Assembly: GCA_022820995.1 (NCBI GenBank)
Contig: JAJEEM010000062.1
Span: 1-64,000 of the forward strand
Length of the DNA stretch: 64,000 nucleotides
Source: Gemmatimonadota bacterium
GTDB taxonomy: Bacteria; Gemmatimonadota; Gemmatimonadetes; Palauibacterales; Palauibacteraceae
Direction: 5' to 3'
Below, one piece after another: positions 3,450-17,689 of the stretch. The notes below the pieces were generated by a model. It was not told the DNA's origin and ran no database searches. It worked only from the letters and a program-made list of their open reading frames with translations. Position 1 is the stretch's first letter. Each line of letters starts with the position of its first letter. The translations under genes and the position numbers were made by a program.

Positions 3450-4895
3450 TCAGACCTCGTTCCTGTTTTCGGATTCCGGCGCCCCTTTGGCGCGGCGCAC
3501 GAGAACCCGCCCGCTCGCGACCTCGAGGACCCGTATGGGGGTCCCGGCCTCGAGCCAGGGACCCTCGGTGACGACATGGATGCGTTCATCATTGACGATC
3601 GCGACCCCCGTGGGCCGCAGGTCGGTGGACGTGACGCCGCGTTGGCCGACGAGATCCTCGCGCGGGGGCGCGGAGAGGTACCCCGTCTCGCGGCTCGTCG
3701 AGTCGCGGAGGAAGAGCCCGGAGAATCGGTTGCTGCGGGGGAGGTGCCGCACGAGCGCCCACGTCGCCACCCCTACGAGAATGATGGAGAGCGAGACGAG
3801 ACCCGCCGCGTTGAACACCTGGTCGAAGGTCGGGACCTGGCCGACCATGCCCATGACGGCGGCCCCGAGTATCGCCGCCGTCCCGAGGATTCCCGCGATC
3901 CCGAAGCCGGGGATGACGAGGACTTCCAGCGCGATGAGCACCGCCCCCGCGCCGAACAGGAGGATCTCCTCGATCCCGGCGAGGTGAACGAGGTGGTGCG
4001 CGCCGAAGAACGCGCCCAGCGAGGCGAGTCCCACCGCGCCCGCCACCCCGAAGCTCGGCGTTCGCACCTCCACGATGAGTCCAAGGAAGCCGAGGCTCAG
4101 CAGCAGCGGCGCGACCGCCGGGTTCGTCAGGAAGCGGACGATCGCCTCCGCCCAGTTGGGCTGGACCTCCCGCACCGGGGCCGCCGGGAGCCGCGTGACC
4201 TCGAGGAGTTCGATGAGGTCCCGGACCTCGCCGTCCGCGACCCCGAGCTCCGTGGCCTCGTCCGTCGTGAGGGTGAGCAGCCGGCCGGCTTCGCTCACGC
4301 CCGGGACCTCGATGCTCTCGTCGACCATCGCCTCGGCGACGAGCGGATCCAGCCCCCGCTCCTCGGCCAGCGCCCGGAACTCGGAGCGCATCGCGCTCAC
4401 CATCTTCTCCGGAGCCTTCTCGCCCTCGCCGGTGACCGGCGTGGCGGCTCCCAGCGTGGAGCCCGGCCGCATGTAGATCCGGTCGGTCGCGAGCGCGATC
4501 ATCGCGCCCGCCGAGAGCGCGCGGCGGTTCACGTAGGCGTAGGTCGGGACCTCCGCGTCGCGCAGGTCGTCGATGATCTTCCAGGCCGCGTCGACCCGGC
4601 CGCCGGGCGTGTCGAGTTCGATGATCACGGCGGGCGCCCCGGACTCCGCCGCCTCCGAGAGCGCGCGAGCCACGAAGGGGGCCACGCCGAGTTCGATCGT
4701 GCCGGAGATCGGCACCCGCACCACCGTGGCCGCGGACTGCGCGACGGGGGCGGACGGCGAGAGGACGGCGCCGAGCCCCGGCGGCACGGGTCCGCCCGAC
4801 GCGGACGCCGCGACCACCGCCAGCCCGAGGGCGAGCAGCGGCGCCGGCAGCCCCGTGAGGCCCGGCTTCGTTCCCTGTCTCGTCATGGGTCGCAT
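3450..4895 (-). CDS. NfeD family membrane-bound serine protease (ClpP class)
   Basis: This is a long-form NfeD protein of about 481 residues. It has an N-terminal signal/anchor (about 15-33) and a ClpP-like protease domain with [12 protein letters not shown] and the nucleophile Ser of RALSAGAM (about residue 128), with a candidate Lys partner near 160-164. Four to five membrane helices follow (about 260-400), then a C-terminal OB-fold NfeD domain. Family members cleave or regulate membrane proteins together with flotillins. The start is ambiguous between ATG 4895 and ATG 4886. The ORF-track start at 5096 runs back into the next gene and is rejected. First gene of the floA operon. Confidence 0.88.
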
Positions 4896-4933
4896 GGGCC
4901 GCAATCTAACGGTGCGGTGCATCGGCCGCCCAT

Positions 4934-7900
4934 TCAGCCGCCCGGCCGGTCCGGCACCGCGATCGGCTCGCCCGCCGAGGGCCGCACGCCTTCCGCGTAC
5001 AGTTGGGCATTCAGCGCCGGCACGCGCGTCTCGATGAGCGCGTTGAGCCGGTCCAGCAACTCCGGCATCACGTTCCAGACCTCGTCGACCTGCCACAGGT
5101 GGTCCGCGGTCGGGACCGTGGACGAGCCCTGGATCGCGTTCGCGACGCCGGCGTTCCTGCGCGCATCCCCCAGCTCGTCGCGAATCTCCTCCACCTCCTC
5201 CTCGATCGCCTCAATCTCCTCATCGAGTCCGTCGGGCGCCTCGTCCGCGCCCTCGATCAGCTCCTCCGCCGCGGACAGCTGCTCCTCGATCGCGTCGAGG
5301 GCCTGCCCCGCCTCGTAGATCGGACCCGCCATGGCGTGGAGGCTCATCAGCGCCTCCTGCCGCGCCATCCGGTCCGCCCGGCTCATCGGCCGGCGGGGCT
5401 CCGCGACGACCTCGACCGTAGCCGAATACGTCTCGCCCCCCGCCTCCATGCTCACCGTGTACTCGCCGGGCAGGACGATCGGGCCCTGCGGCGCGCCGCC
5501 GAAGAAGCCGCCGCCTCCGCCGGGGCCGCCGCCCGCGCCGCCCTCGCGCTCGTAGGGCGCGTCGTGACGCCAGTCCCAGATGACCTCGTTGATGCCGACC
5601 TCCGCGGGCGCCTCCAGCGTACGCACATGTACCCCCGAGGCGTCTGAAATCGCCAATGAGAAGGAATCCGCGGCGTCCTCGGCGGCGTCCCCCGCACCAT
5701 CATCGTCCGAACCGTCGACGTCGTCATCCTCATCAGCGTCGCCGTCTCCGTTGTCGCCGTCGGCGTGCTCCTCCCCGTCGTCGTCCTCGGCCACGGCCTC
5801 CTCCGGGGCGTCGCGCAGGTAGTAGCGGATCCGGGCCCCGCGCGGCGGGTTCGGCGCGCTGTAGGTGGCGCCGTAGAAGGGCCAGTCCCCGCGCTCCGTC
5901 CACATGATCGAATGGTCGCCGAACACGCGGCCGGCCTCGGCGAGCATCCCCTCGGAGAGCGCCTCGAGCGGCGCCACGTCGGCGAGGATATAGAGGCTGC
6001 GCCCGTGCGTGCCGACGATGAGGTCGTTCTCGCGCGGGTGCACGAGGATGTCGTCCACCGGCACCGTGGGCAGGTTGTTCTTGAGCTGCACCCAGTTCTC
6101 CCCGCGGTCCACGGAGACGAAGACGCCGACCTCGTTCCCGATGAAGAGGAGGTTCGGCGCCCGGTGGTGCTCGACGATCACGTTCACCGACCACCCGTCC
6201 GGGAGCCCGTTCGCGATCGCCCGCCAGCTCTGCCCGTAGTCCTCGCTCACGTAGGCGTAGGCCGCGTAGTCGCCGTTCCGGTGCCCGTCGAAGGTCGCGT
6301 ACACCCGTCCCTCGACGTGGTGGGACGGCTCCACCCGGCTCACGTACGTCCGCTCCGGGAGGCCGGGGATGCGGTCGACGACGTTCTCCCACGTCTCTCC
6401 GTCATCGCGCGTCACCTGCAGGTTCCCGTCGTCCGTCCCCGCGTAGATGAGTCCCGGTACGAGCGACGATTCCTCCACCGAGGTGAGGTTGCCGTAGTTC
6501 GCGATCCCGTCGTTGAGCGACATCTGCGGCTCGGAGCCGGGGACGCCCATGATCTCGAGTTCCTCGCGGTCGATCTGCTTCGTGAGGTCGAGCCCCCCGA
6601 CCTCCTCCCACGACATCCCGTAGTCCCGCGAGCGCAGCAGGTAGTTCGCGCCCAGGTAGACCGTCGCCGGGTCGTGCGGCGAGAGGAGGAGCGGCGAGTT
6701 CCAGTTGTAGCGATAGGCCTTCGTCGTGTCGCCGTCCGCGCGCGGCCCGACGATCGGACGCATGGGAATCTTCTCTCCCGTCGTAAGGTCGTAGCGGTTC
6801 ATGTTCCCGCCCTGCGACTCCGAGTACACGATCGTGGAGTCGGTGGGGTCGACGATCGTGAAGAAGCCGTCGCCGTAGGCCGTCTCGTACCAGTCCTGGT
6901 GCCGGATGCCGTGGAACGAGCGCGTGTCCGACGGCCCGCACCACGCGTCGTTATCCTGCAGTCCCCCGCACACCGCGTAAGGCGTCCGCATGTCGAAGCC
7001 GATCGCGTAGAACTGGCCGAGCGGGATGTTGTCGAACATGCGCCAGTGCGCGGCCCCGTCCCACGAGGCCGCGACCCCGCCGTCGCTCCCCAGGATCAGG
7101 TGGTCCGGATCCTCCGGGTTGATCCACAGCTGGTGGTGGTCCACGTGAATCTGGACGGCGCCGTCGTTGCGGAACGTCCGTCCCCCGTCATCGGAGATCG
7201 CGAGCTGCGTCCCGAGGACGTAGATGCGGTCGGGGTTGCCGGGATCTATGCGGACCTGGGAGTAGTACATTGGGCGCGGATTCGTGTCCGACACCTTCTC
7301 CCATGTCTCGCCGCGGTCGGTGGAGCGGAAGAGCCCGCCCTGGCGCGGACCGCCGCCTCCGCCCCCGAAGCCCTGGCCGGGCCGCCGCGGATCCGCCTCG
7401 ACGAGCGCGTAGACGAGGTTCCCGTCCTGGCGGTAGATGTCGATGCCGATGCGCCCCTTGTCCCCGTCGGGGAGGCCCTCGGTGAGTTCCGTCCAGTTGT
7501 CGCCGCCGTCCACCGTGCGGTAGAGACCGCTCCCCGGCCCGCCGCCGTTGAATCCCCAGCCGGTCCGCTGCCGCTGGTACATCGCCGCGAAGATCGTGTT
7601 GGGGTCGGCGGGGTCCATCGCGAGGTCGATCGCGCCCGTGTGGTCGTCGACGTACAGCACGTTCTCCCACGTCTCCCCGCCGTCGCGGGTCCGGAAGACG
7701 CCGCGCTCGGGGTTCGAACCCCAGAGGTCCCCCATCGCGGCCACGTGCACGATGTCGGGGTTCCGCGGGTGAATGAGGATGCGGGCGATGTGCTTCGTCG
7801 CCTCCAGCCCCATGTGCATCCACGTGTTCCCGCCGTCCGTCGACTTGTAGACGCCGTTCCCCCACGGGGAGGACTGTCGGTTCTGCGGCTCCCCGGTGCC

Positions 7901-12603: not shown

Positions 12604-13500
12604 ATGCACCGACCACGGGCAGCGTCACATACAGGTCTGATCGCCCTCTTCTTCACGGCGTGGATCGCGGCAAACGGGCCCGTGTCCGCGCAGGAGAGCC
12701 GTCTGGTGATGACGGAGTCCGGTAGGCACGTACTGCCCGCACATGTCGTCGTTCGCGGCGGCGCGCTGTCTCCGCGAGGGGACGCCAGCCTGTTCTGGAG
12801 TGGCGATACCGTCTGGATCGCATCGACGCGCCACGCGGAGGTGCGCGCCGTGTGCCCGGAGAGGGTCCGCGCGCCGCTCGGAGCCGCGTTCGTCGGCGCC
12901 CCGGCGGCCGGACGGGCGCCCGCCATCGAGATCATCGACGGAGGGATTGAGGGCGAGGAAGAGCCGCGGCTCATCCGCTTCGCGGACGGGCAATGCCGCG
13001 ACACCGCCTGGAGCGGCCCCGACCCGAGCCTGCCCATTGCCCGCGACGCGAGCGGCTGGGTGTCGGACTTTGAGGTGCCGATCGCATGGTCCGACAGCGC
13101 GGTCATATCCGTGTCGAGCGGGCCGCGCGGCATCATCGTCTCGTCCCGCCGCTTTCCGTTCGCCTGGGCGACCGCGGCGGACGGCGACAGCCGGTCGGCG
13201 GCGGGGCGCGTGCCGGCCGGGAACGAGTCGTACTACGGGAACGACCCGTGGATCGGGACGGGGGTGTTCGCGCTCGACTCGGGCTTCGTACAGGTGCTGG
13301 CCGACCTCGCGTCGGACCGGCGCGACCTCGTCTTCTACGACTCGTCGGGCGCGTTCAAACGCCGACGGGTCATCGACGTTCCTTTCGGGATCCTCGACAC
13401 CGCGCCGGACCGGCGGCAACTGCTGGCCCTCCGCCGGACGGACCGCGTCGAGATCCTCACCTACGAATGGACTTGGCAACCACACCGGGCCGGGAAGTGA
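12604..13500 (+). CDS. secreted hypothetical protein, probably beta-propeller-like
   Basis: This 298-residue protein has a signal peptide (about 1-30, ending GPVSAQES). The remainder is rich in short beta-like segments such as FVQVLADLASDRRDLVFYDSSG and LDTAPDRRQLLALRRTDRVEILTYEW. These resemble blades of the 6-bladed TolB/NHL-type propellers encoded two genes downstream, although the GxGPGE motif is absent. It is the first gene of a four-gene block of exported proteins. The start ATG follows a GGGGAGC-like site. Function unknown; surface binding or sensing is a guess from the fold. Confidence 0.65.
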   Translation: MHRPRAASHTGLIALFFTAWIAANGPVSAQESRLVMTESGRHVLPAHVVVRGGALSPRGDASLFWSGDTVWIASTRHAEVRAVCPERVRAPLGAAFVGAPAAGRAPAIEIIDGGIEGEEEPRLIRFADGQCRDTAWSGPDPSLPIARDASGWVSDFEVPIAWSDSAVISVSSGPRGIIVSSRRFPFAWATAADGDSRSAAGRVPAGNESYYGNDPWIGTGVFALDSGFVQVLADLASDRRDLVFYDSSGAFKRRRVIDVPFGILDTAPDRRQLLALRRTDRVEILTYEWTWQPHRAGK

Positions 13501-13522
13501 ACCCAAAACCAGGAGCAAAGGT

Positions 13523-13969
13523 ATGCTGACGAAGAAGATCTCCAACTGGATGATCGCCGCCGCGATCATCTTCGGCGTCGCGGCCCTGACGCCCGACAAC
13601 GCGCAGGCGCAGGATACTGGAATAGATTTCTGCGTAAGCTGTGGCATGTTCTCGGGTGAGTGCGACGAGGGAGGGCCGGGCGTAAACGACATATGCGTCT
13701 GGGGCGAGTGGGGGGGAGTGGATTGGTGCGTTTCGTGGGGCCGCGATTTCTGTGATCCTCGCTTCCCGCGCACCCGGTCCGCTTCGATCGGCGCGGACGG
13801 TGCGATTGTGCAGGAGCGGACATTCGCAGCGGCAACGTCCGACGCTACCGAGATGCCGCAGTCGATGTCCAACCACATTCGTGACTGCAGCAGCCGGATC
13901 GTTGCGAGAGCATACAGCGCGGATGAGGCAGAGCACATGCGTCGCAGGACCGAATCGATCGTGATCTGA
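13523..13969 (+). CDS. small secreted Cys/Trp-rich protein
   Basis: A 148-residue ORF hidden inside a longer ORF-track entry. The ATG at 13523 is preceded by AGGAGCAAAG, and its first 30 residues form a clean signal peptide (MLTKKISNW...NAQAQ). The mature part begins with a Cys- and Trp-rich segment: six Cys within about 45 residues, with FCVSCGMF, ICVWGEWGGVDWCVSW and FCDP. A polar tail containing RDCSS follows. I know no named family for it. Its position between two propeller-type genes recalls the NVEALA-type small exported peptides next to 6-bladed propeller lipoproteins in Bacteroidota. That is an analogy of layout, not shown homology. Confidence 0.65.
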   Translation: MLTKKISNWMIAAAIIFGVAALTPDNAQAQDTGIDFCVSCGMFSGECDEGGPGVNDICVWGEWGGVDWCVSWGRDFCDPRFPRTRSASIGADGAIVQERTFAAATSDATEMPQSMSNHIRDCSSRIVARAYSADEAEHMRRRTESIVI

Positions 13970-13984
13970 GATCGGGCGGGCGTT

Positions 13985-14034
13985 GCCGATGATCGGGGGA
14001 AATTCAGCCCCCGGTGCATCCCCCGATCATCGGC
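13985..14034. repeat. 15-bp perfect inverted repeat (long hairpin) inside the secreted-protein block
   Basis: GCCGATGATCGGGGG (13985-13999) and its exact reverse complement (14020-14034) form a 15-bp stem around a 20-base loop. The loop can itself compete for pairing through its CCCCC run. The hairpin begins 15 bases after the Cys-rich gene stop and ends 33 bases before the next gene's ATG. It has no T-run, so it may stabilise or partly terminate the upstream mRNA, or be a protein site. Confidence 0.7.
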
Positions 14035-14066
14035 GGCCCGCAAAATACAAGACAGGAGATCGGATC

Positions 14067-15260
14067 ATGTTCAACGTGGTACTTGCCGCCGTGGTTGTTC
14101 TTGCCGCGGTTGCGGACCTCCCGGCCCAGGAGCGTCGCGACACGCTCGTCGCGGTCTCTCGCCTGGCGGTCCCCGACAGCGTACCTCTCAGCGACGTCGA
14201 GCAGTTGGTTCCGGCGACGGACGGGTCGATGTTCATGCTCGATAGCCGGACGGAGAGCGTGTTGGCGTTCGGCCCGGATGGGGTCTTCCGGCGGCAAATC
14301 GGTCGGCGGGGCGAAGGTCCGGGCGAGTTGCTCTCGCCGTGGCGTCTCGGGATGCTGGGGCGCGACACGCTGTGGGTCGTGGATGCGCGGCGCCGCGTCA
14401 ACCTCTACGATGCGTCGACCGGGGAAAGTCTGGCGGACTTCGGCCCGGATACGTGGGATGCCGCGACGGCGGGCGGCGAGATCGTGCGACCGTTCGCGGC
14501 GCTGGCAGACCACAGCATCATGGCCTTCAGATGGGCCGAGAGGGATCTGCTGGCGGAAGTGCTCGCATTTCGCGTCGAGCGCGGGGCCGCTCCGGAAGGC
14601 GCTTCGCTTGCGCTGCTGGACCTCCGGGACCGGTCCGTCGCGGCCCCGGTACCGACGGGCGATGGCAGCCTGCAGTTGCGCAATCCGTTTTCTCACAGCG
14701 ATATGATTGCAGTGGGCCCCGGCGGAAGGCGCATCGCGGTCATACGGCGACCACGGCCGGAGGGCTCGCCCGCGTTCTTCGTGGCGGAACGGCATGACGT
14801 GTTGCAAGGTATCGTGGACACGGTTCGGGTCTCGTACGAGCCGCGCCCCCTCGACGCCCGCGAGATCCGGGCGTGGGCGGAGGAACTCGGACCCGTGGAG
14901 CGAGTGGTCGAACTCGGCGTGTTCCCCAGCCGGGCGGCGGGGGTTGAAGCGGTGCTGGGGGCACTCGATGCGCCCGGCCACCATCCGCCGGTCGAGAACC
15001 GGGGGCGGGGCATCGTGGACGAGGGCGTGCTGATGGACCCGGAGGGCGTAATGTGGTTTCAGCTCTACGACGCGTCCGGACGGTCGAACGAGTGGATCGT
15101 CGTCTCCGGCGAGGGAGGCGCGAGGGAGGTGTCGCGCGTGGCGGCTGCGGCGGGTGCCCGGCTGCTGGCCGTGAGCGGAGACCGGGTATGGGCGGAGGTG
15201 CGCGACGCGTTCGGAGTGCCTGCGGTTCAGGTGCTGCGGATCCAACGCGCCTGCGGATGA
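14067..15260 (+). CDS. secreted 6-bladed beta-propeller protein
   Basis: A 397-residue exported protein with a signal peptide (about 1-20, MFNVVLAAVVVLAAVADLPAQ). It has propeller-type strands, including ATDGSMFMLDSRTESVLAFG followed by the characteristic GRRGEGPGEL. That GxGPGE phrase is common to 6-bladed beta-propeller (BF3164/NHL-like) proteins of Gemmatimonadota and Bacteroidota. The ATG at 14067 with a GGAG site is preferred over the TTG at 13983, which would place the signal peptide internally. It is likely co-transcribed with the Cys-rich gene upstream and with the CarboxypepD_reg gene 4 bases downstream. Ligand unknown. Confidence 0.8.
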   Translation: MFNVVLAAVVVLAAVADLPAQERRDTLVAVSRLAVPDSVPLSDVEQLVPATDGSMFMLDSRTESVLAFGPDGVFRRQIGRRGEGPGELLSPWRLGMLGRDTLWVVDARRRVNLYDASTGESLADFGPDTWDAATAGGEIVRPFAALADHSIMAFRWAERDLLAEVLAFRVERGAAPEGASLALLDLRDRSVAAPVPTGDGSLQLRNPFSHSDMIAVGPGGRRIAVIRRPRPEGSPAFFVAERHDVLQGIVDTVRVSYEPRPLDAREIRAWAEELGPVERVVELGVFPSRAAGVEAVLGALDAPGHHPPVENRGRGIVDEGVLMDPEGVMWFQLYDASGRSNEWIVVSGEGGAREVSRVAAAAGARLLAVSGDRVWAEVRDAFGVPAVQVLRIQRACG

Positions 15261-15264
15261 CGGC

Positions 15265-16449
15265 GTGACTCGACACACCCGCGTCGGCGCGCGCGCGATG
15301 CTGGCCGCAACCCTCGCGTTCGCCCTGATTGCGCCCGTCGTCGCCGCGCAGGACCCGGGCGCTCGGATGACGGGCGTCCTCGTGTCCGAGGGCGACGGCA
15401 CGCCGGTGGACGGGGCGGTCGTGGCGCTCGTGGACGGCGAAGGCGTCGTCGCGTGGGAGACGCTGTCGAACGCCAGCGGCGCGTTCAGCCTGCCGCTGCC
15501 GCCGGTGGGCACGTACCGCGTTCGGGTATCGCGCATCGGCTACGATTCGTGGACCTCCGGCCCGATCCGCATCGACTCCGCGCAGGCGCCCGGCCCGCTG
15601 CGCCTCGAGATCCCGGTGCGGCCGATCCCGCTCCCGGAGTTGATGGTCACGGAACAGAACGACTGTCCGACGACGCCCGAGCAGCGGCGGCGCGCGTTCG
15701 AACTCTACGAGTCCGTCCTCCCGATCCTGGCCTCGATGTCCACCGCGGCGACTGGCGACTCTCTGCTTGTGCGGATGGAGCGGCCGGTCCGGATCTGGAA
15801 ACGAGGCAGGTTCCGCTATACACAGGACACCGTGACCGTCATGGTCACGGAGGCGCTGAGCAACGCGTCGCCGGGACACCTGGAGGCGTACGGATACGGG
15901 GACATCGTTGGCGATTCCATGACGACCTTCTACGCGCCGGACGGTGCCGCGCTGGCGTCGCCGGGGTTCCTCGCGACTCACTGCCTGAGCACAACCGAGG
16001 CCGAGACCGGGGCTGACGTCACGACCGGGCTGGCGTTCGAGCCGAGGCCCGGCCGGGAGGTCGTCGACGTGACCGGCGTGCTGTGGATCGACACTGTCGC
16101 CAACGAACCCCGGGAACTGGCGTTCCACTACACGTCGCTGCGACCGTTCCTCCGGCGACATCTGGTTGAGCCGCTACGGGATGACCACGAGCGTCGTTTG
16201 CCTGGCCGCCGCGCCAGCATTGGCACCATCCGCATCCAGGAGTCTCGTTTCGGGGGGCAACTTCGCTTCGAGCGTGTTGCCAGTGATCGTTGGCTGATCC
16301 GCGAGTGGCGAATGCTCACGCCGCGCCTCGCTTCTCGCTCCTTCTCGCACCCGCGCACGGGGACCAACGTCTTGCCCATTGCAGTGCCCCTTGAGTCCCG
16401 AGGCGAGGTGCTTGCGTTGTTCCGCCGCTCCGACCGTTCCCCGCGATGA
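15265..16449 (+). CDS. secreted protein with N-terminal CarboxypepD_reg domain
   Basis: This 394-residue exported protein has a basic n-region and hydrophobic signal (about 1-29, ending APVVAAQD). An Ig-like carboxypeptidase-regulatory-type domain follows (about 32-125), with the usual GTPVDGAVVAL, NASGAFSLPLPPVGTYRVRVSRIGY layout. The remaining 270 residues are an all-beta-looking region I do not recognise. No TonB-plug or barrel follows, so it is not a SusC-type receptor. The start is a GTG at 15265; ATG 15298 is possible but would remove the basic n-region. Last gene of the four-gene secreted block. Confidence 0.72.
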   Translation: MTRHTRVGARAMLAATLAFALIAPVVAAQDPGARMTGVLVSEGDGTPVDGAVVALVDGEGVVAWETLSNASGAFSLPLPPVGTYRVRVSRIGYDSWTSGPIRIDSAQAPGPLRLEIPVRPIPLPELMVTEQNDCPTTPEQRRRAFELYESVLPILASMSTAATGDSLLVRMERPVRIWKRGRFRYTQDTVTVMVTEALSNASPGHLEAYGYGDIVGDSMTTFYAPDGAALASPGFLATHCLSTTEAETGADVTTGLAFEPRPGREVVDVTGVLWIDTVANEPRELAFHYTSLRPFLRRHLVEPLRDDHERRLPGRRASIGTIRIQESRFGGQLRFERVASDRWLIREWRMLTPRLASRSFSHPRTGTNVLPIAVPLESRGEVLALFRRSDRSPR

Positions 16450-16921: not shown

Positions 16922-17689
16922 ATGATCAAGATCATAGTGGAATCCTCGCACGACGCCACCCTGATCGAGGATGCAGTCGATAACTGGCCCGTCCGCATAG
17001 TCAATGATGTCGAGCGTCTGCCAGGCGACGACGATGTCGAGTGCCTGATCCTGGGTTCCCGCGCGCGAAATCTGGCGCGGTGGGTCGGGCCGTTGGGGAA
17101 GATCGAGCGGGATTGGGCCGGAGTTCCCATCATCGTCGTGACGGATTCCGAACCCGAGGTGGCGCTCCAGCTAAGCGGCATCAAGGTGTCCGCCGTCGTC
17201 TGGTTCGAGGATCTCCAGAGCGAGCTCGGCCCCGCGATCCGCGCCGCGCGCGGAGTGGATCATATTCTCCGCCTGGCCGGGGAGATAGAGGAATCGACGC
17301 TGCCCCCCTCTCTTCGGTTAGCCGTGGCGCACGGACTCCGGGTGGCTACGGACCGACCGATTCGCCGCGTACGGAAGCTGGCGTCGGTGGTTGGCTCCTC
17401 CCCCGTTACGCTGTCTCAGCAGTTTCGGGAGAGTGTGGGGGGCCGCACGACCTTGGCGCGGTTCCTTCGCGCGCTTGTCATACTCCGGGGCCACCAGCTG
17501 CGGTCGTCCGGTCTCGGCTGGGACCGGGTGGCCGGAGAGTTGCGAGTCTCTCGTCAGACGCTCCACCGCCAATCGAAGGAGTGGCCGGGCCGCAGGCTCG
17601 GTCCGCTGGCGGCCATGTCGCGCGGACAGCTTCTCGCACGGTTCGTGTCCGACTTTGTGCGTCCCCTCCTCGCTGACAGGACCGACTAA
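16922..17689 (+). CDS. putative transcriptional regulator with AraC-like C-terminal HTH
   Basis: A 255-residue cytoplasmic protein. The N-terminal ~115 residues alternate strands and helices as in a response-regulator receiver (MIKIIVESSHDATLIEDAV, VPIIVVTDSEPE), but the receiver Asp/Lys pattern is not clear, so phosphorylation is doubtful. The C-terminal ~110 residues resemble two helix-turn-helix units of AraC type: RPIRRVRKLASVVGSSPVTLSQQF, then LGWDRVAGELRVSRQTLHRQ. It probably binds DNA. Its targets are unknown; the upstream block of secreted proteins is the nearest candidate. The 3' end overlaps the convergent deaminase gene by 4 bases. Confidence 0.6.
   Translation: MIKIIVESSHDATLIEDAVDNWPVRIVNDVERLPGDDDVECLILGSRARNLARWVGPLGKIERDWAGVPIIVVTDSEPEVALQLSGIKVSAVVWFEDLQSELGPAIRAARGVDHILRLAGEIEESTLPPSLRLAVAHGLRVATDRPIRRVRKLASVVGSSPVTLSQQFRESVGGRTTLARFLRALVILRGHQLRSSGLGWDRVAGELRVSRQTLHRQSKEWPGRRLGPLAAMSRGQLLARFVSDFVRPLLADRTD

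Follow-up and report, generated by a model that had tools for sequence, protein, structure and literature searches.

The block of genes at positions 12604-16449 of the window (the whole 64,000-nucleotide stretch analysed here) raises the question of whether a small Cys/Trp-rich exported protein and the beta-propeller encoded beside it belong together, and, if they do, which genes make up the unit and what it might do for the cell.

Organization of the block and its products

The block lies on contig C13 of a 3.7-Mb genome (G000) and comprises four plus-strand open reading frames, P1 to P4, separated by gaps of 22, 97 and 4 bp. Its closest relatives are found in assemblies annotated as Candidatus Palauibacter and in other Gemmatimonadota. 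A Sec/SPase I signal ending in ...AQ is predicted at each of the four N-termini, the calls being made with a crude hydropathy score and inspection by eye. The initial annotation had described four co-directional, closely spaced genes with export signals, which coded for a propeller-like protein, a small Cys/Trp-rich protein, a six-bladed propeller with the motif GRRGEGPGEL and a CarboxypepD_reg protein. The coordinates, gaps and N-termini agree with this picture, and only the nature of the first product has to be restated. In comparisons with relatives, dN/dS amounted to 0.26-0.36 for P1, 0.29-0.36 for P2, 0.24-0.27 for P3 and 0.37-0.62 for P4; because purifying selection is seen on all four, the genes are not spurious.

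P2 (13523-13969) encodes a small secreted protein of 148 aa. Its signal peptide (13523-13612, residues 1-30) ends in ...NAQA before the first Q of the mature chain, and the AQ site is aligned in A1, in A3 and in a 20-member alignment. The mature protein is 118 residues long, 7 of them Cys and 5 Trp. It begins with a variable Cys/Trp-rich domain (13613-13762) of the pattern CxxC...C...C...C...C and closes with a conserved C-terminus (13874-13966), RDCxxRIVARxY...RRRTESIVI, which in the family takes the form RxCxGxIVxRxY...LxL. No Pfam or NCBIfam model matched P2 above its cut-off.

P3 (14067-15260, 397 aa) is an exported six-bladed beta-propeller: it matches PF17170 with 34.1 bits (E = 2.2e-8, cut-off 22.9 bits) and solved NHL propeller structures with E = 2e-9. 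P4 (15265-16449, 394 aa; GTG start, alternative ATG at 15298) is an exported protein that scores 55.1 bits against PF13620, CarboxypepD_reg (E = 1e-14, cut-off 32.3 bits).

P1 (12604-13500, 298 aa) belongs to an exported family without a name. Neither Pfam nor NCBIfam gave a match above cut-off, and no Pfam match was obtained for the type-2 P1 (see below) or for the P1 of the more distant genome G202. A weak link to propellers runs solely through the G202 relative (25 bits), and profile-profile comparison with hhalign returned a probability of 6%. The description of P1 as propeller-like therefore stays plausible on the strength of this weak similarity, and we reject for now the view that P1 is a proven propeller. 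AlphaFold2 models built from shallow alignments had pLDDT values of 37 for P1 and 35 for P2, a confidence too low for structural conclusions. Compared with G021, G026 and G020 (alignment A7), the P1 of the window has lost about 30 residues in frame from the middle of the protein.

Cassettes within Palauibacter

With an E-value limit of 0.01, BLAST with P2 gave hits in 13 of the family's 35 genomes, the last three listed being weak or spurious. The order P1-P2-P3-P4 is kept in G021, G026, G019 and G023, followed in several of them by a homologue of the window gene at 16922-17689 (plus strand), a putative HTH regulator with a weak HTH_23/HTH_18 match below cut-off. The same four genes occur without the HTH gene in G020 and in the assembly of locus L017, while in G024 P1 is relocated behind P4.

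The genome of the window itself contains three P2 genes: the one described above and one each on contigs C47 and C57. An earlier reading based on a gene-caller scan, by which the window propeller was the only one in its genome with a Cys-rich partner, proved wrong once reading frames and profiles revealed the C47 and C57 copies. On C47 the order is an HTH gene, a P1-like gene, a second type of P2 (type 2), a propeller and two genes for CarboxypepD_reg proteins, one of them with a TonB plug; on C57 it is a short P1, P2 and a propeller. Type-2 cassettes were also found in G027, G025, G032, G023 and G022. The type-1 and type-2 forms of P2 have in common the CxxC, further cysteines, a DG and the C-terminal Cys motif. 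Homologues of the HTH gene sit before P1 in the type-2 and in some type-3 Palauibacter cassettes. They form a family of about 260 aa with a weak HTH end, present beside P1-P2-P3 in Palauibacter (window 16922-17689, L076:5981-6865, L137:6616-7656 and L175:6687-7571), and possibly act as cassette regulators.

Two further loci show altered P2 genes. In G022 (L020:5998-6783) a deletion joins the start of P1 in frame to P2, leaving a single open frame of 268 aa. In G031 (L023:5998-6186) P2 has decayed to the conserved C-terminus alone, and the adjoining P3 is intact.

Recurrence of the P1-P2-P3 unit across the class

A profile built from Palauibacter-type P2s only (A3) matched P2 in other families of the class, and with a wider profile (A5) matches were obtained in 35 of 394 class genomes, representing 15 of 143 genera. 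Some A5 seeds were picked after their neighbourhoods had been viewed, a mild circularity that does not touch the other-family matches of A3 or the new matches of A5, as these were found by P2 sequence alone. Because most class genomes are devoid of P2, the protein is not essential. Outside the class no match was obtained at E<=1e-5 in a sample of the phylum, most of which may belong to the same class. Weak matches at E around 1e-3 (G250, G297, G153, G018, G223 and G387) were discarded as false, reflecting mainly signal-peptide similarity and having no propeller nearby.

The neighbourhoods showed a recurrent arrangement. P1-P2-propeller was found in G202 (a single-contig genome), in G198, twice in tandem in G155 and at second loci of G024 and G027; P2-propeller was found in G292, G334, G097 and G286. 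A propeller gene lies directly 3' of P2 in 44 of the 46 cases with P2 at E<1e-6 and at least 600 bp downstream (48 P2 genes in total), as against about 1% expected from propeller density (roughly 40 propellers in some 3440 genes). The two exceptions are an intact type-1 P2 in G032 and the copy in G191. Directly upstream of P2, a P1-family gene is present in 35 of 48 cases, that is, 32 plus G000, G023 and G020, which were added as the P2 envelope was merged there. In the tandem P1-P2-P3-P2-P3 arrays of G240 and G136 the 1:1 pairing of P2 with P3 is preserved. Thus the expectation that small Cys-rich frames recur beside GxGPGE propellers in Gemmatimonadota was confirmed, within one class.

The four genes did not hold up as a single unit. 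In the neighbourhoods read, most modules of other families lack P4 and the HTH gene; the conserved core unit is P1-P2-P3, with P4 and the HTH gene as lineage-specific neighbours. That the P1-P2-P3 module is real we regard as virtually certain.

Pairing of P2 with its propeller

In genomes carrying two or more modules, the distances among P2 proteins and among their P3 neighbours were correlated with r = 0.91. When partners were exchanged within genomes, so that the species tree was kept, the mean fell to 0.28, and none of 5000 trials reached the observed value (p = 0.0002). Furthermore, in a tree of propellers that included 22 others from the genome of the window, the P2-linked propellers clustered: 4 label changes were counted vs. 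16.8 after shuffling, and none of 500 shuffles was as low as 4, some long branches being unsure. Most P2-linked propellers fall into a single subgroup, distinct from the remaining propellers of that genome. Taken together, the correlation, the clustering and the 1:1 tandem order show common inheritance as dedicated P2-P3 pairs. Inheritance as a block, even if the proteins did not bind each other, would equally yield the correlation, and on balance a dedicated P2-P3 partnership appears likely.

Cysteines in the module

The number of cysteines in mature P2 is odd (7 or 9) in 41 of 44 distinct proteins; the remaining three, with 6 Cys, are the unpaired G032 copy, one P2 of G024 (G024a) and a frame-broken copy in G025. 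P2 cysteines are thus gained and lost in pairs, a pattern suggestive of disulfide bonds with one Cys left over. P3 is Cys-free in 35 of 41 cases and P1 in 10 of 31. Since P3 usually and P1 often lack cysteine, a disulfide from P2 to either of them is disfavoured as the general role of the odd Cys, and a P2-P2 disulfide dimer is the simplest reading. We nevertheless put forward the covalent dimer tentatively, as a suggestion that may well prove wrong.

Exchange of P2 alleles between Palauibacter species

Comparison of G026 and G019 in nucleotide identity windows showed mostly 97-100% in P1 and 99-100% in the middle of P3, vs. 59-76% in mature P2; the ends of P3 are divergent as well, a pattern that recombination would leave behind. 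Informative sites in P1 group G026 with G019 by 26:1, whereas those in mature P2 pair G026 with G021 and G019 with G020 by 90:0 against that grouping. The dS values follow the same pattern, being 0.07, 0.88 and 0.17 (P1, P2 and P3) between G026 and G019, and 0.17, 0.05 and 0.14 between G019 and G020. The window P2 is itself a mosaic, its first half G021-like (89-95%) and its middle closer to G019. The opposite species groupings, with near-identical flanks, allow us to conclude that alleles have been exchanged locally at P2, the replacement being sited in the variable Cys/Trp-rich domain. Misassembly is unlikely because each allele is present in several independent assemblies. The alleles are old and exchanged; with dN/dS below 1, P2 bears no sign of positive selection driving them.

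Proposed function and its alternatives

We consider that P2 is best explained as a secreted recognition protein whose C-terminus docks on its propeller P3, and we give this reading a probability of about 0.6. According to it, P1, P2 and P3 would probably be co-transcribed, and P2 would be exported and oxidised to a small disulfide-rich protein. At the cell surface or in the periplasm, its partner would be the exported P3, with an accessory role for P1. The conserved RxCxGxIVxRxY...LxL segment would be the docking part, and the variable domain would face outward as the recognition part, diversified via allele exchange; the unpaired Cys of each chain would link two P2 molecules. Where an exported protein shows localised exchange of alleles, this is usually a sign that something extracellular is recognised, and we put outward recognition by the variable domain at roughly even odds. 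In its fullest form the proposal would be an undescribed Gemmatimonadota recognition system in which a covalently dimerised P2 is presented by the propeller, strains exchange balanced alleles of its outward domain and up to four differently specific copies are kept per genome. We hold this fullest form to be rather unlikely; such a system may serve, for example, to recognise kin, to evade phages or to interact with a host.

P2 might instead help the propeller to fold or serve it structurally, as a periplasmic assembly factor that recognises nothing outside, its variation being due to drift and recombination hitch-hiking. The strict 1:1 order, the co-divergence of P2 with P3 and the purifying selection would all suit this role, but a sharp divergence peak inside mature P2, the near-identical flanks and the opposite groupings exceed what drift in a folding factor is expected to produce, and most propellers of the window's own genome manage without a P2. 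We therefore hold it to be unlikely. The allele data bear likewise on a secreted antagonistic, bacteriocin-like P2, with the propeller and P1 as maturation or self-protection factors: a small, secreted, Cys-rich protein whose alleles vary between relatives while its neighbours stay conserved, with several modules per genome, is what would be expected. However, the gene next to a toxin should vary with the toxin allele if it provides specific immunity, and the middle of P3 is 99-100% identical across both P2 forms; moreover, P2 matched no toxin, defence or phage family and no exporter gene was seen in the neighbourhoods read, which makes this explanation improbable. A phage or defence origin was rejected, neither PADLOC nor PHROGs giving a match for five window proteins. 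Least probable is a nutrient-sensing or uptake cassette spanning the whole neighbourhood, including P4 and the HTH gene, with P2 as a substrate-binding subunit: the Palauibacter type-2 cassettes do add an HTH gene upstream and CarboxypepD_reg and TonB-plug proteins downstream, but the cassettes read contained neither a transporter nor a barrel nor a degradative enzyme, and P4 and the HTH gene seldom accompany the modules of other families.

Relation to known systems

In Bacteroidota, the small exported NVEALA proteins adjoin six-bladed propellers, and the layout of a small exported protein gene beside a propeller gene, as in 44 of 46 P2 loci, is much alike. P2 differs in having 7-9 Cys, the C-terminal CxGxIVxRxY motif and the upstream P1 gene; the window propeller, moreover, resembles an SPase I-exported protein and not a lipoprotein. 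P2 had no match to NVEALA (PF14055) at E<=1, the cut-off being 27 bits, nor did any of 20 P2 members belong to that family; in the window's own genome no NVEALA protein passed the cut-off, the Bacteroides ihuae control being positive. We thus rejected P2 as an NVEALA member, in line with the initial view of a different and unnamed small protein, although by analogy P2 may work like NVEALA. P3 is a member of the PF17170 (DUF5128)/NHL propellers. P4 is one of the PF13620 exported proteins, some of which carry a TonB plug, as do plug versions in the type-2 cassettes; it differs in being merely a lineage-specific neighbour outside the module core.

The literature searched contained no paper on such a module, none on NVEALA, none joining six-bladed beta-propellers with Gemmatimonad, and nothing on recognition outside the cell in Gemmatimonadota, a largely uncultured phylum. 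As far as sequence comparison can tell, the P2 and P1 families are undescribed, and so is the set of three exported-protein genes. Six-bladed propellers are abundant in this phylum, mostly with no known role; the window's own genome alone yields no fewer than 33 hits to PF17170 (E<=0.01), and several of these lie in tandem pairs. The P2-linked subgroup would provide a first testable function for them, so that the block offers two new protein families, P1 and P2, and one testable pair, P2-P3.

Other small exported proteins

On contig C27 of the window's own genome (L068:3084-3338 and 4617-4964), two small exported proteins similar to each other (QSECGEYISGGPN...) are encoded near a propeller match; they are not related to P2. 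At L142, L145 and L131 (G126, G188 and G097) there are remoter Cys-containing secreted proteins of small size whose C-termini carry motifs resembling CSGYTVARY or CGEHVIAHI; some of them are encoded beside propellers, and they are perhaps further P2 families.
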